The position numbers and the translations under genes were made by a program. Below, in pieces: positions 4,969-10,074 of a stretch of 64,000 nt of DNA. A model generated the notes under the pieces. The model was not told the origin of the DNA, ran no database searches, and was given only the letters and a program-made list of their open reading frames with translations. Where the stretch lies: assembly GCA_009917695.1 (NCBI GenBank), contig JAACJG010000001.1, positions 62,001 through 126,000 of the forward strand, in the 5' to 3' direction. The stretch's first letter is position 1, and every line of letters starts with the position of its first letter. The DNA comes from Candidatus Rifleibacterium amylolyticum. GTDB lineage: Bacteria; Muiribacteriota; Ozemobacteria; Ozemobacterales; Ozemobacteraceae.

Positions 4969-5010
4969 AACAGAACCGCCGTATTCTCTCAAGAATACGG
5001 CGGTTCTGTT
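4969..5010. terminator. bidirectional terminator between converging units
   Basis: A perfect 19-base-pair stem (4969-4987 with 4992-5010) closes a four-base loop. T-rich sequence follows on both strands (TTATCATTAT on plus, TTTTATTATG on minus). It can end both the TPR gene from the left and the four-gene cassette from the right. Confidence 0.85.
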
Positions 5011-5014
5011 ATCA

Positions 5015-5164
5015 TTATGCCGCTTTTTTGCCGGTCTTTCGGTTCTGAACCTTGAATCCGGCAGGATTCACCAGGTAGTCATACAATATTTCTTCGGCTT
5101 TATAGTTTCCGCTGTCCTGTCCATCGATCAGGACGCTGCCGTTCGTGAAAATTTCAATGAGCAT
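5015..5164 (-). CDS. 49-residue protein at the end of the propeller/TPR cassette
   Basis: A short open frame not resembling a family I know. It begins MLIEIFTNGSVLIDGQDSGN and ends in a basic tail (NRKTGKKAA). An AAGGAG Shine-Dalgarno sequence lies five bases before the ATG, and the frame stops just before a strong terminator. It is 45 bases downstream of the TPR gene and therefore looks like the last gene of that transcription unit. It has no signal peptide or membrane segment, and the start of the sequence resembles a beta-hairpin. Function unknown. The ribosome-binding site and placement make it likely to be translated. Confidence 0.65.
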   Translation of the reverse strand: MLIEIFTNGSVLIDGQDSGNYKAEEILYDYLVNPAGFKVQNRKTGKKAA

Positions 5165-5209
5165 GCGTTCTCCTTTCGTCTTCTGTAATATTTGTTTGCG
5201 CTTGATTCA

Positions 5210-6847
5210 CTATTCCTGATCTGCCTGCTGCTCCTCCTGGTAATAATTTTGTCCTTCTTTCTGCATGCGAAGAACCTCAAGCCTGGCATTTAGCTGGCGT
5301 CGCACCAGTTCATTCTGGTCGGGTTCTTCAAGTCGTTTTAAGATGGCTTCTTCAGCTTCTTTTGCTCGTCCGCTTAGGTTAAGACTGTCAACCCACAACA
5401 GAAAGGCTCTCAAGATTTCTGGCTTCTCTGCCAGAAGCGACTCGAGAATCTTCGCAGATATTTCGGGGTTATTTGCCAGATGTAACTCTGCCAGTTTGAT
5501 ATGCAGATTGTGATCGTCCGGGCGCTGATTTCGTGCACTTTCGAGAAGGTTGGCAGCTACTCCGACGGCATCATTGACAATGAATTCATCAACGCTCTCC
5601 AGCAGAAGAGATGTCAGTTTGTCGTCAAAATTTATGCGGGCGGCTTCTGGTGCTATCAGCTTTACCTGCGGCTGGTTGTCAATAATCACGGCAACTCTCA
5701 ACATGTTCAACAAAAGTTCAGGGTTAATGGTAACCAGGTGCCCGGGTTTGAGACGCGCAATAATTTCGTCAGCCATCTCAGTGATATCTTTGCCGCCTTC
5801 ATCAGTTCCGGAGGGTATGGCCTTAAGTCGTGAAAAAGCCTTTAGCCAGACATTGATCCAGGCGTCGTAAAGGCGAAGTTCATTCGGATAGACAGAAAGC
5901 AGCTGTCGGGTTGCTGTAAAAGCCTTTTTCTCCTGCGCGGTCTCGCTGAGAATTCTCACATATATCAGGTTGTCGTCGAGTGAGTCTATGGGTCTGCTGT
6001 TAACCATCTGCAGCGCTTTTTCATATTGCTTCTGATCGATGAGAAAGCTGATAAGTTCGCGTTCCAGGCTGTTAACGTCAGCGCCCGGCACCTTCATTTC
6101 ACGTCTGATGAATTCTTCGAACTTATCTGCCAGGCGCAGTTTGAGTATGAGGTCTTTGATTCGCTTTCTAACCGGTGTGGTGACGATTCTTCGGCTGCTG
6201 ATCGAGAGGAATTTTTCCAGCGCAGTTTCCGGCTCTGTTTCGTAGGAGAACCAGGCATCGACAAATGCGCTTAGTTCAGCTGATAACGACTTGTCGGCTG
6301 ATTTTTTATTAAACATGGCAGCATAGTGCTCAGCCTTGGTCTGACGGTTCAGCATGGTGGCAGAATATGCAGCAGTGAAGAGTATCTCTTCGTTGTCGGG
6401 CATCTCGCTTATGGCTTCTTCGCAGAGTTTCAATGCCTGTTCGTAAGATTCGCCGGTTATATATATTTCGAGAGACTCTTTGAACTTTTTCCGGTATCGT
6501 GCCATGCGCATGTCGCCGAGGTAGCGTCTCGCCCTTGAACCGAACTCCGAGTTGTTTTCGACTCTTTTGAAGAACTTTTCGGCATTTTCGAAGTTGCCCG
6601 CTTCGTATGAATATAAGCCAGCGTGAAAAAGGGCTCCGGTATGGCCAGGATTCAGCTTCAACACGCGTTGAATGTCTTCTTTGGCCTCACTGATGCGTCC
6701 CTTTTCGGCGGCAATTTCAACTTTGCGATAGATTCTTGTCTCGATGCTCTCATTGCTTGCAGCAGTTTTGAAATCGCTCAGCGATAATCCTGCCAGGCAG
6801 ACAGCTGCGGTCAGAAAGCCAGATTTTAGAAGGCGACGTTTATTCAT
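5210..6847 (-). CDS. exported TPR-repeat protein
   Basis: A 545-residue protein starting MNKRRLLKSGFLTAAVCLAG, an apparent signal peptide. TPR-like helical pairs follow through most of the length, for example ALFHAGLYSYEAGNFENAEKFF near residue 70 and DDHNLHIKLAELHLANN near 450. The end is Gln/Glu-rich. I take the start at 6847, where ATGAATAA overlaps the stop of the upstream TPR gene by 8 bases; a longer frame to 7054 would run through that gene's coding region and lacks the signal peptide at its start. Translational coupling is likely because the Shine-Dalgarno sequence is poor. It is probably a periplasmic scaffold working with the neighbouring TPR and propeller proteins (inference from the operon). 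Confidence 0.82.
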   Translation of the reverse strand: MNKRRLLKSGFLTAAVCLAGLSLSDFKTAASNESIETRIYRKVEIAAEKGRISEAKEDIQRVLKLNPGHTGALFHAGLYSYEAGNFENAEKFFKRVENNSEFGSRARRYLGDMRMARYRKKFKESLEIYITGESYEQALKLCEEAISEMPDNEEILFTAAYSATMLNRQTKAEHYAAMFNKKSADKSLSAELSAFVDAWFSYETEPETALEKFLSISSRRIVTTPVRKRIKDLILKLRLADKFEEFIRREMKVPGADVNSLERELISFLIDQKQYEKALQMVNSRPIDSLDDNLIYVRILSETAQEKKAFTATRQLLSVYPNELRLYDAWINVWLKAFSRLKAIPSGTDEGGKDITEMADEIIARLKPGHLVTINPELLLNMLRVAVIIDNQPQVKLIAPEAARINFDDKLTSLLLESVDEFIVNDAVGVAANLLESARNQRPDDHNLHIKLAELHLANNPEISAKILESLLAEKPEILRAFLLWVDSLNLSGRAKEAEEAILKRLEEPDQNELVRRQLNARLEVLRMQKEGQNYYQEEQQADQE

Positions 6848-7451
6848 GGCTGCTGTCTCTGAAAACGGTAGAAATACTGCGTGGTCGCATGTCCTGAGCA
6901 AAAAGTGCCGAAAGTTCGGTTCTGGCTTTTCTGGCCAGTGCCGAGCGGTTATCGACAAGCAGTATGTGCTCAAGTTGAAGTCTGGCTTCGCTGAATCTGT
7001 CGTTTCTTCTGTGCAACAGCGCCAGATTGAATCTTGCTGGCAGATGGTCGGCAAGCTCTATTGCTGCTGTGTATTCTTTTATTGCGAGGGCATCCCAGTC
7101 TGTGCTGTCGCCGGGTAGTCCTTCCAGTCCACGTTTTTCATAGGTCCATGCCAGCAGAAATCTTGCTTCTTCAGCCGCGGGTTGCAGTTTGACCGCTTTT
7201 CTGAAGGCCCAGATTGCCTGTTCATACTCACGTCGAGCCAGATAGTTGCGACCGTCTCTTATCCAGCCACGATACTCGCGGCCTGAATTATTGAGCATCG
7301 AGTAGAAGTTGGCTTCACTCTTTCGCCCGGTCATCGGTGCAACCGGGCTGTGCATCAGCCTGTCGATTCCGTTGCTGGCCATGTAAGCTTTGGGCCATGC
7401 GAAGAAGGCGACAAACAAAAGAATTGTTATTAGAAGAAATCTGTTATTCAT
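6840..7451 (-). CDS. small exported TPR protein
   Basis: A 203-residue protein with a signal peptide (MNNRFLLITILLFVAFFAWP) and two or three TPR units, about residues 60-165 (ARREYEQAIWAFRKAVKLQP, then PARFNLALLHRRN). It sits between the beta-propeller gene (61-base gap) and the larger TPR gene (8-base overlap). The three exported proteins are thus very likely co-expressed. TPR units mediate protein contacts; no catalytic motif is visible and the partner is not known. Confidence 0.82.
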   Translation of the reverse strand: MNNRFLLITILLFVAFFAWPKAYMASNGIDRLMHSPVAPMTGRKSEANFYSMLNNSGREYRGWIRDGRNYLARREYEQAIWAFRKAVKLQPAAEEARFLLAWTYEKRGLEGLPGDSTDWDALAIKEYTAAIELADHLPARFNLALLHRRNDRFSEARLQLEHILLVDNRSALARKARTELSALFAQDMRPRSISTVFRDSSHE

Positions 7452-7512
7452 TGTCAGGATTCTCTTTAATAAGAGTCGGCAGAATCCTGAACTTTATGAA
7501 TTGAAAAATTAT

Positions 7513-9885
7513 TTACTCTGGCAGATAGTATACACCGTCGGGCATGGCCATAAAAATGACGAAGTCTGATTGAGCAATAGATTTGACCGGCTTGGGAGTG
7601 TAGTATCTTTCCCAGAATCCGTCCTGATAAAGTGCATAGCCACCGCCCTCAGAATCGCTGAAGGCGATTCTGTAGGTTTCGGGGTTCATCTGGTCGAGAC
7701 AGAGGTCGGTTATTTTGAAGCCGGGGCCGGTAGCTGCTGATTCTATAAGTCTGTAGTGTTGCCCGTCAAACTCGCTGGTTCCTTCACTGCCATTGATAAG
7801 AATCCTGCCACTTGGCAACCTGAAAAGATTCAGCACCGCTCCAATTTTGCCGGTGCCCTTTTCAGAGAGCAGTTTGAAGCTTTCACCATCGAATATTTTC
7901 TGAAGCCCATTTTCCATGCCTATCAACAAATAGTGTTCGGTGTTGAGTAGTGCTGTGACTTTGGCAGATTCATCCTTTTCAAAATTCTGCAGTGACTGGC
8001 TGGCGTTGCCAAAGTCAAAGCTGCGCATGTAGCCGCCATCGAGATTGTGCAGTTTGACCTGTTGGTATCTCTCTTTGTCGCCGGCTTTCAGTATGTCGAG
8101 TATAGTTTCTGGCGTAGTGCCCACCAGACCGGTGCCATCATAAATGAAAACCTGTTCATAAACCTTTTCTGAAGATGCAAATGCGATGAAAATCCGGTTG
8201 CTGCTGTCTATGCAGATTCGGGTCGCTGTGCGGCCTGAAATGCGCGGTTGCGGTTTGCGAAAACCTATAGGCTGCCAGGTTTTGCCATTCCACGTCATAA
8301 CTCCTTTGTCGCCGGTGACCCAGAGATTGCCATCGCGGTCAAGGGCAAAATCTGTCACCTGCTGGTGAAAGCCTTTGACATTTTCAGCGGTGAAATGCCC
8401 GAGATCCTTCAACGGGCTGATCTGATAGATGTGCATGCCCTGTTCTTTCGTGCCAATGTAGAGAATATCTGAGATGACGCGAATTCGAGTTGGTTCACAT
8501 GGCAAGAGCTGTGTAAGCTGGCCTTTGCCACTCATCTTGCGGCGGGTATAGCGCATTATTCCACCGGTTTCGGTGCCGAACCAGGCCTCGCCGTCTTCCT
8601 TTACCGCTATGGCGGTAATGTTGTCGCACGGCAGCTTTGAGTTTTCTCGTGTCAGATGATAACGTTCGCCATTTTCAGAATACAACACCAGGCCGCTGTT
8701 CTGAGTGCCCACCCACAACCCTCTTATCAGCGGGGATTTTATAATGCCGCTGACAAAGCCTCCGGGAGCGGCATATAGGCTGGTCTGTCCGGTAGTATTA
8801 AGTTGCTCTACCGTGTTGGTCATTCTCGTCTGAAACGCAAAAAATTGCTCGTACATCGCGTTTACGGCTTCTTGTGGTGCCTGCGTTCTGCCGGCATAGC
8901 GTTGGGTGTAGTCGGCATATTCCTGTTGCAGACGGTTGTATTCTTCGCGCAGCTCTGCAAAAGCATCGTTGTTTTCTACCAGTTCTGTAGTGCCGGCTTT
9001 GACTTTGGCCTGTGAACTTCTGTTATCTGATTTCAGGTCAGGCGGGAAAGCACTGAATGCAGCACGGGTGCACCAGATGCCAGGCAGCAGGTTCTCATAT
9101 TTCGTCATGTCTTCAGTCATGAATAGACCGTTTGCCGATGCGATGAAGAGGCGCTTCTCGGCAGTGGTAAAATCGTTTACCCAGCCGATAGTGCTCTCAT
9201 TTTGAGGAATTTCTGTCAGGGTTTTGCCGTTGATCTGGTAAAGGCCGCCATGGCAGCCGGTAAACTTGCCAAGTTCACAGTCGATGACTGAGGCAAAACC
9301 GGTTGGACTCAAATAGGTCGGTATGCTGAACGGCGCAAAAGTGTCTGACCGAAGTTCCCCAACCGAATGATCGCAGGCGACCAGACAAACTTCATTCTGG
9401 TCGCGCATCTTGCTTATGGCCAGTACATTGAGATTCCCGGACTGTTTATCGCCAATAGCAGATGCTTTAACTTTGTTGTTCTCGACAAAGCACTTGAAAA
9501 TGCCATTGCTGGTGCCGGCCAGAAAGCTGTTATCATTGATTCTGATCAGGCTGTTCACGGTAACTTCTGGAAATCTGAACGTGGTTTCTCCTGATTTCTG
9601 CCAGGTTTCGCCATCGAAAACCATCAATCCTTCTTCTTGAGTGCCGGCAATTACCAGTTCTTCGCCCAGGCCTGAAGTGTGAATGAGCAGTGATCTTATT
9701 TTATTGCATGGCAGCCCGTTCAGGCTGTTGTAAACCGCAAAATATCCGGACTGAATGCGTGAGGGCGGAACCTCGAGAGTCGGAAAATGCTGAGGTCCCG
9801 GTTCGGGGTCGCAGGCCCTGGCTATCGGGTTGGCCTGAAAAGTGGCGGCCAGTATCAGTATTGTCAGTATCAGGTTTTTATACAT
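7513..9885 (-). CDS. exported beta-propeller protein (two-component-regulator-propeller type)
   Basis: A 790-residue protein with a signal peptide ending around residue 24 (ANPIARA). Repeated short segments follow of the kind seen in regulator propellers: GLMVFDGETWQKSG, GLWVGTQNSGLVLY, AWFGTETGGIMRY, NLWVTGDKGVMTWNGKTW. A charged coiled-coil-like insertion (about residues 305-350, ELREEYNRLQQEYADY) interrupts the propeller. Unlike the sensor kinases in which such propellers are common, it has no transmembrane segment or kinase after it. It leads the cassette with two TPR proteins and a 49-residue protein. The role is unknown; an extracytoplasmic binding scaffold is an inference. AGGA lies upstream of the ATG. 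Confidence 0.82.
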   Translation of the reverse strand: MYKNLILTILILAATFQANPIARACDPEPGPQHFPTLEVPPSRIQSGYFAVYNSLNGLPCNKIRSLLIHTSGLGEELVIAGTQEEGLMVFDGETWQKSGETTFRFPEVTVNSLIRINDNSFLAGTSNGIFKCFVENNKVKASAIGDKQSGNLNVLAISKMRDQNEVCLVACDHSVGELRSDTFAPFSIPTYLSPTGFASVIDCELGKFTGCHGGLYQINGKTLTEIPQNESTIGWVNDFTTAEKRLFIASANGLFMTEDMTKYENLLPGIWCTRAAFSAFPPDLKSDNRSSQAKVKAGTTELVENNDAFAELREEYNRLQQEYADYTQRYAGRTQAPQEAVNAMYEQFFAFQTRMTNTVEQLNTTGQTSLYAAPGGFVSGIIKSPLIRGLWVGTQNSGLVLYSENGERYHLTRENSKLPCDNITAIAVKEDGEAWFGTETGGIMRYTRRKMSGKGQLTQLLPCEPTRIRVISDILYIGTKEQGMHIYQISPLKDLGHFTAENVKGFHQQVTDFALDRDGNLWVTGDKGVMTWNGKTWQPIGFRKPQPRISGRTATRICIDSSNRIFIAFASSEKVYEQVFIYDGTGLVGTTPETILDILKAGDKERYQQVKLHNLDGGYMRSFDFGNASQSLQNFEKDESAKVTALLNTEHYLLIGMENGLQKIFDGESFKLLSEKGTGKIGAVLNLFRLPSGRILINGSEGTSEFDGQHYRLIESAATGPGFKITDLCLDQMNPETYRIAFSDSEGGGYALYQDGFWERYYTPKPVKSIAQSDFVIFMAMPDGVYYLPE

Positions 9886-10020: not shown

Positions 10021-10053
10021 AAATAAAAAAGCTGCCGGGTTTTACCGGCAGCT
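10021..10053 (-). terminator. terminator of the CarD-like gene
   Basis: Read on the minus strand, AGCTGCCGG, a six-base loop and CCGGCAGCT are followed by TTTTTTATTT. This is a standard intrinsic terminator placed just after the stop codon at 10075. Confidence 0.88.
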
Positions 10054-10074
10054 CTGATAAATCAGGTAATCGGG

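Follow-up and report, generated by a model that had tools for sequence, protein, structure and literature searches.

In diderm bacteria, exported tetratricopeptide repeat (TPR) proteins are often scaffolds or adaptors, as in the cases of BamD, LbcA, PilF, and YbgF. LbcA (PA4667) is the adaptor of CtpA in Pseudomonas, and the PilW/PilF/Tgl proteins (TIGR02521) are small exported TPR proteins that serve as type IV pilus pilotins. Two seven-bladed β-propellers of the Reg_prop type are found in the sensors of hybrid two-component systems (HTCSs) such as BT4663, BT3049, and BT4673, in which they are combined with Y_Y_Y, kinase, and regulator parts, and an exported double propeller without a kinase is represented by PorZ (NF052228). 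A known periplasmic scaffold, which provides a precedent for TPR and propeller modules together, is a single predicted lipoprotein with an OmpA-like domain. In this study, we analysed a stretch of 64,000 nucleotides (the window; G000:C1:62001-126000) from the genome of Candidatus Rifleibacterium amylolyticum (G000; 5,391,313 bases in 35 contigs), in which the genes of two TPR proteins (TPR1 and TPR2) and of a protein of 49 amino acids (aa) lie downstream of the gene of an exported Reg_prop-type double propeller (P0001).

Analysis of the locus and its comparison with the described systems revealed that (i) TPR1, TPR2, and the 49-aa protein form a conserved core, whereas the propeller is patchy across the family and accessory to the core; (ii) unlike the HTCS sensors, the window propeller is stand-alone, without Y_Y_Y, kinase, or regulator, and has a coiled-coil insertion and a conserved CxPEPG N-terminus; (iii) it falls far below the curated cut-off of PorZ and lacks a C-terminal domain; and (iv) in contrast to the single scaffold lipoprotein, the TPR and propeller modules are encoded by separate genes that are not always together.

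TPR1, TPR2, and the 49-aa gene form a conserved core

The counts given for the family refer to 24 genomes of Ozemobacteraceae (Riflebacteria), to which 15 from the phylum's other families were added (39 in total). All three core genes were found in 22 of the 24 family genomes, and in 21 of these 22 they stand in a fixed order on one contig, the unit of G009 being split by contig ends. No core gene was found in the family genomes G013 and G016, which are 67% and 70% complete. The 15 genomes of other families yielded no convincing core orthologs: TPR1 and TPR2 had only generic TPR matches there, and the query with the 49-aa protein had none. A scan of named genomes returned 21 TPR1-containing loci, mostly from Riflebacteria, Ozemobacter, or Ozemobacteraceae. 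The vicinity of CarD, which is a neighbour of the locus in the window, was taken from 11 other-family genomes; our script found no CarD open reading frame (ORF) in 4 of them (G037, G036, G033, and G029), and the other 7 show only generic TPR matches. In G024, a TPR ORF of 160 aa adjoins CarD (TPR1 profile, E 1.6e-6), without TPR2 or the small gene. The core and CarD are on different contigs in the family genomes G014 and G022, where no core gene was found around CarD, and we therefore regard the core as a unit of its own. Because 22 of the 24 family genomes have inherited its three genes together and in the same order, an undescribed envelope unit is likely.

TPR1 (203 aa; 6840–7451, minus strand) is the first gene of the core. 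It is overlapped by 8 nt by TPR2 (545 aa counted from ATG; 5210–6847, minus strand), whose start is best placed at 6847, the listed ORF with a TTG start extending to 7054. The 49-aa gene (5015–5164, minus strand) comes third, and its product has no signal peptide. The spacings of the four minus-strand ORFs in the initial annotation (61, −8, and 45 nt) agree with the checked ORF coordinates. Signal peptides of the propeller, TPR1, and TPR2 were called by eye, in line with the three exported products annotated initially. The initial view of these products as interaction modules without enzyme motifs is borne out by Pfam, in which Reg_prop and TPR families match and no enzyme domain exceeds the cut-off; TPR families match both TPR1 and TPR2. 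With gene starts picked by script, TPR1 and TPR2 overlap in 19 of the 21 genomes that have both on one contig (the exceptions are G007 with a gap of 10 nt and G017 with 122 nt), and the 49-aa gene begins 21–235 nt after TPR2. The 22 family orthologs of TPR1 share 32 invariant columns and a conserved loop, EGLPGDxTxW; the alignment of TPR2 leaves out G009, in which this gene is split over contigs.

The core ends at a terminator-like hairpin (4969–5010, minus strand) with a perfect 19-bp stem and a T-rich tail, in agreement with the strong terminator initially annotated there. Terminator-like sites are no more common across the region than in shuffles (8 versus 6.6 ± 2.8), so the assignment rests on the length of the stem. 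A similar hairpin was located at most 120 nt 3′ of the small gene in 18 of the 22 genomes by our own script, run without a shuffle control.

The ratio of nonsynonymous to synonymous substitution rates (dN/dS) was computed for 3 to 5 pairs per gene, 18 in all. It was 0.045–0.102 in the 8 whose dS was finite (0.85–3.04), the other 10 being saturated; these values are rough because most finite dS exceed 1. By gene, the finite pairs gave 0.059–0.075 for the 49-aa gene (3 of 5), 0.065–0.102 for TPR1 (3 of 5), 0.045 for TPR2 (1 of 5), and 0.096 for the propeller (1 of 3). The low dN/dS together with the 22 conserved copies of the 49-aa protein support that the ORFs are coding.

A promoter-like element precedes the core

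A promoter-like element, TTCAT-N14-TGCCGA (7476–7500, minus strand), lies 24 nt 5′ of the TPR1 start, inside the 61-nt gap that separates TPR1 from the propeller gene. The element, with a spacer of 14 or 15 nt, recurs 5′ of TPR1 across the family. In 18 of the 22 genomes, TGCCGA lies 21–24 nt upstream of the start of TPR1 (mean 0.15 and largest value 2 in 200 Markov shuffles), with or without an upstream propeller; it is lacking in G006, G007, G010, and G017. When one mismatch at most is allowed, 12 of the 22 carry the whole element (shuffle mean 0.03, largest 1). Of 12 regions upstream of the propeller gene, only that of G017 has TGCCGA within 60 nt of the start, the cut-off G001 gene having been set aside.

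The consensus of sigma-28 (FliA) promoters is TAAA-N15-GCCGATAA. The core element resembles it in its GCCGA box and in its spacing of 15/16 nt and differs from it in the −35-like box, which is TTCAT rather than TAAA. A FliA/WhiG factor exceeded the cut-off in 26 of the 27 genomes searched.

The same element is located 5′ of a PorV/PorQ-family outer membrane protein gene (L217:1569-2552, on contig C6 of G000) that passes the family model NF033709 with 126.7 bits against a cut-off of 90. The 25-mer at this gene is identical in G000, G002, and G005 and is not among the element matches of G012 and G019. In addition, TTCAT-N14-TGCCGATAA lies directly 5′ of L227:1538-2848 (contig C13 of G000), whose product, an exported TPR protein, has a C-terminus that looks barrel-like by eye. 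In relatives, some further element matches lie 5′ of genes whose products have a hydrophobic N-terminal stretch (L264, L268, and L242), and others do not; in G002, G005, G012, and G019, 44 of 93 matches were examined, and 17, chosen as intergenic-looking, do not constitute a fair sample. The promoter position of the matches was partly judged by eye. The flavoprotein-like gene of L215 was set aside as an element-driven gene, its frame being open through the motif.

Separately, a perfect 10-bp inverted repeat, TCAGGATTCT/AGAATCCTGA, spans the −10-like box and the ribosome-binding site of TPR1 (window 7454–7490; hairpin z −3.4). It is exact only around TPR1 of G000, G001, and G002. Its left arm overlaps the element, and it is therefore probably not transcribed whole from there; an RNA hairpin over the ribosome-binding site was rejected on these two grounds.

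The propeller is accessory to the core

The propeller gene (7513–9885, minus strand; 790 aa) was found in 12 of the 24 family genomes. Of the 22 genomes with the core, 5 have it beside the core, 1 has a remnant, and 6 have it on a different contig; in the other 10 it was not found. The five copies between CarD and TPR1 are those of G000, G001 (over contig ends), G005, G007, and G019; in G007 the propeller is more than 1 kb from the genes on either side. The remnant, in two frames, lies beside the core of G012 (L125:11030-11578). The copies on other contigs are those of G002, G006, G010, G015 (two copies), G017, and G020, that of G017 being a broken fragment in two frames near a contig end (L143, C33). 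In G013, the propeller is on a short contig where no core was found, and in the remaining family genomes the propeller query gave weak generic matches or none. Thus, under the check initially proposed, co-occurrence of the four genes in relatives, TPR1, TPR2, and the 49-aa gene stay together (22 of 24), and the propeller does not stay with them (beside the core in 5 of 22). A fixed four-gene cassette is rejected on account of the patchy propeller and of the core having a promoter-like element of its own.

No propeller was present in the CarD–TPR1 stretch as read in G003, G004, G008, G009, G018, G021, and G023, which are 7 of the 10 genomes in which it was not found. This slot is only about 100–460 nt long in G002, G003, G004, G009, G017, G018, and G021. 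Elsewhere it contains a 2-hydroxyacid dehydrogenase gene on the other strand (G010, G019, where the propeller is also present, and, by eye, G008 and G020), a hydrolase-like gene (G008 and G020, by eye), or another opposite-strand ORF (G023). A terminator-like hairpin lies between the propeller and TPR1 in G019, and none was found there in G005.

On the core tree, the presence of the propeller needs 4 changes when the remnant is counted as present. The core of G002 is sister to that of G001, whereas the G002 propeller branches outside those of G000, G001, and G005 and is therefore not simply a moved copy from the locus. Between G000 and G005, the propeller diverges faster than the core, the proportion of nonsynonymous differences (pN) being 0.24 for the former and 0.10–0.16 for the latter. 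No shared partner was seen near the off-core propellers among 14 neighbour proteins of 7 loci, 7 of which have no family; the neighbour in G006 is a TPR protein unlike TPR1 and TPR2 in our search.

Fold and N-terminus of the propeller

Pfam identified Reg_prop in the propeller (E 9e-10), and its best sequence matches are HTCS sensor structures (4a2l, E 7e-31). The AlphaFold model, built from 11 sequences (pLDDT 80, pTM 0.74), predicts two seven-bladed propellers (residues ~44–449 and 448–790), with a helical pair inserted in the first; by this model, the protein belongs to the double-propeller fold class. The insertion (residues 308–364; 8794–8964, minus strand) is the coiled coil initially annotated and consists of helices 308–329 and 338–364, modelled with a pLDDT of ~60–70. 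HTCS sensors also top the fold list, with Z 27–30 to BT3049, BT4673, and BT4663 (3v9f, Z 30.0, rmsd 16.6 over 551 residues) and a Foldseek E value of 2e-22 at a TM score of only ~0.3, and the single propellers align to others at ~2.4–3.9 Å. Because the whole model combines high Z and low E with an rmsd of 16–22 and a TM score of ~0.3, each propeller fits when taken singly, but the arrangement of the two relative to each other does not. No Pfam match to Y_Y_Y, a kinase, or a regulator was obtained in P0001, and the chain ends with the second propeller at residue 790, consistent with the initial description of a sensor-kinase-type propeller that stands alone.

A conserved motif, CDPEPGPQHF (residues 25–34; 9784–9813, minus strand), follows the signal peptide and may be a lipidation site. 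C[DEN]PEPG is present in all 13 propeller N-termini, and its cysteine is the only invariant one in the 11-row alignment, which leaves out the incomplete G001 and G013 sequences, the G012 remnant, and the G017 fragment. The cysteine is preceded by A or S in 12 of the 13, and a PROSITE-style lipobox was matched in 3 of the 13 but not in the window's own protein. The propeller is perhaps lipid-anchored.

The genome G000 also encodes a complete HTCS kinase (L198:3797-7891, contig C24) with Reg_prop, Y_Y_Y, HisKA, HATPase, and receiver domains, which contrasts with the stand-alone propeller.

The 49-aa protein

The 22 family copies of the 49-aa protein share 10 invariant columns. Its model contains a β-hairpin plus a helix and a basic tail (pLDDT 80, pTM 0.53), and the protein probably stays in the cytoplasm. 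No significant match was found in Pfam, NCBIfam, or PDB; a Pfam scan of the 22 copies gave a single match at E 0.089, and the fold search gave nothing at E 0.001 or better. A resemblance to DUF2997 (PF11211) was not supported: neither the 49-aa protein of the window (P0004) nor its 21 orthologs matched this family in Pfam, and the sole PF11211 match in the 7 genomes searched is a different gene, in G020. Outside the family, the profile of the 49-aa protein found one weak match (E 9e-5), an 80-aa ORF of G036 (L179:1404-1646) beginning MIVEVHRDGRVTIDGEEF, which lies in an unrelated context beside response-regulator-like and fatty-acid-synthesis-like genes (by eye).

Neighbouring genes

Upstream of the locus in the window are the genes of CarD and ribosomal protein L25, and a terminator-like hairpin (10028–10055, minus strand) separates CarD from the propeller gene. 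Downstream are a convergent TPR gene whose product has no signal peptide, MurQ, and a gene of a SpoIID-domain protein. In L115:3474-7545 (and, by size, also in L118, L125, and L130), genes of a solute-binding-protein/permease fusion, a permease, and a BadF-type ATPase lie between the convergent TPR gene and MurQ; they are absent at this place in G000, G001, G002, and G005. These genes perhaps serve MurNAc uptake.

Discussion

The best explanation of the locus, to which we give about an even chance, is a three-gene operon for a periplasmic TPR scaffold or adaptor, accompanied by a separately evolving, ligand-binding propeller. In the scheme that we infer, which extends to export, the scaffold role, ligand binding, lipidation, and transcription, an mRNA starting from the element just 5′ of TPR1 would encode TPR1, TPR2, and the 49-aa protein and end at the hairpin. 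Translation of TPR1 and TPR2 is probably coupled, since the genes overlap. The exported pair would most likely act in the periplasm as helical-repeat scaffolds or adaptors that gather other envelope proteins; family-wide conservation, the gene overlap, and an element common to an outer membrane protein gene point to a scaffold pair for envelope assembly. The upstream propeller, predicted to be exported and to lack Y_Y_Y, a second membrane span, and a kinase, most likely binds a ligand. In G000, the propeller transcript may read through into the core, which would be independent of it. Glycan binding by BT4663 and PorZ is described in two reports (PMC5121618, PMC8545088), and by this analogy a glycan would be the likeliest propeller ligand.

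Several points weigh against this explanation. The TPR folds are generic, and export, interaction, and expression of the core and propeller products are predicted. The exact element has 37 matches in G000 versus 1 for the reversed pattern, but most of the 30 examined (30 loci of the 37, plus 3 more) fall inside long open frames, so exact matches alone prove little; some candidate genes behind the element in relatives are not exported (e.g., L250 and L270), and FliA/WhiG is, from sequence, only a candidate for the sigma factor that would read the core element. The absence of the propeller from some of the 10 genomes could be an assembly gap (completeness 64–96%). Moreover, the gap between the propeller and TPR1 is only about 60 nt in G000 and G001, and a propeller between CarD and TPR1 is represented in each of the two deep clades on the tree of the core (G007 in one; G000, G001, G005, G019, and the G012 remnant in the other), so an old linkage and some functional tie are possible.

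These last observations bear on the proposal that all four proteins belong to a single obligate envelope assembly or sensing complex, which tight same-strand spacing between two terminator-like hairpins in G000 and the position of the propeller in the two clades would favour. We consider it improbable: 10 of the 22 core genomes yielded no propeller and 6 have it on a separate contig, a promoter-like element belongs to the core itself, and in G019 a hairpin separates the propeller from TPR1. What survives of the undescribed envelope complex initially suggested is thus a three-gene envelope unit, and what does not is a fixed four-protein sensing complex. The propeller might instead be a periplasmic co-receptor feeding a separate hybrid two-component kinase, given its HTCS sensor fold and the complete HTCS kinase of G000. 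This too is improbable, and the search for a kinase co-varying with the cassette, made with the Y_Y_Y domain only, ran counter to it: Y_Y_Y exceeds the cut-off in 3 of the 24 genomes (G000, G001, and G015), whereas 12 have the propeller gene. A type IX-like role, in which the propeller would be PorZ-like, is the least probable of the readings considered here. Matches to the PorZ model were obtained with every one of the 11 aligned propellers (best E 7e-17), the PorV/PorQ-family gene passes its family cut-off and shares the element of the core, and a barrel-like protein with a SprA-like stretch is present in 21 of the 24 genomes; yet the PorZ match is local and reaches 52.8 bits against a cut-off of 260 (best stretch of P0001, residues 391–447), no domain follows the second propeller, and scores for the PorV, PorQ, and PorV2 equivalogs fall far short of the cut-offs. 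The SprA match covers ~60–125 of 2319 positions and exceeds the cut-off in none of the 24 genomes; PorU, GldL, and GldM were not searched. In G000, the barrel-like protein (P0006; L197:309-3431, contig C3) has ~1000 aa, of which ~100 residues match SprA (TIGR04189), and has no Pfam match.

The TPR proteins themselves allow two other readings. TPR1 and TPR2 could serve a periplasmic protease or a cell-wall enzyme as its adaptor, in the manner of LbcA for CtpA. TPR2, an exported TPR protein like LbcA, matches it weakly (7rqf, E 1e-4, profile positions 388–500), and the cell-wall genes MurQ and SpoIID are nearby. Generic TPR matches numbered 33, this one included, and most scored better; by eye, no clear lipobox was apparent in TPR2, and no protease partner was seen among the scanned neighbours of the core, no search aimed at CTP proteases having been made, which leaves the adaptor reading unlikely. 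TPR1 could alternatively be a type IV pilus pilotin of the PilW/PilF/Tgl kind, with the core serving pilus assembly: it is likewise a small exported TPR protein, 21 of the 22 TPR1 sequences match TIGR02521 weakly (best E 1e-6), and PilF is among the PDB matches (2ho1, E 1.7e-5). However, TPR1 reaches 22.9 bits against a cut-off of 154, other TPR models match equally (PrsT 22 of 22, MamA 16 of 22), and no pilus gene was found among the scanned neighbours, co-variation with pili not having been searched; a pilotin is very unlikely. We also considered, with still less confidence, that the core, the PorV/PorQ-family barrel, and other exported TPR proteins are one regulon for outer membrane assembly or surface attachment outside Bacteroidota, in which the propeller would be the PorZ-like glycan-binding part in those lineages that keep it.

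Returning to the scaffold or adaptor operon with its separate propeller, only the 49-aa protein, with no match to any family searched, is not of a known kind. Among the papers listed by title and abstract searches, with supplementary tables outside their scope, none appears to describe the operon. Within the reach of these searches, the combination, the stand-alone propeller with a coiled coil, and the promoter-like element appear to be new. One paper (PMC10849945) describes the phylum as rich in gene families of unknown function and reports 26 putative lineage-defining unknown families for Riflebacteria.

The analysis tells a conserved, unnamed three-gene envelope unit apart from an optional propeller. 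Should the propeller prove to be related to glycan sensors while standing alone, it would exemplify a sensor part used without its kinase; and if the element marks a regulon of exported proteins, it would offer a direct handle on the cooperating envelope proteins of these uncultured bacteria.

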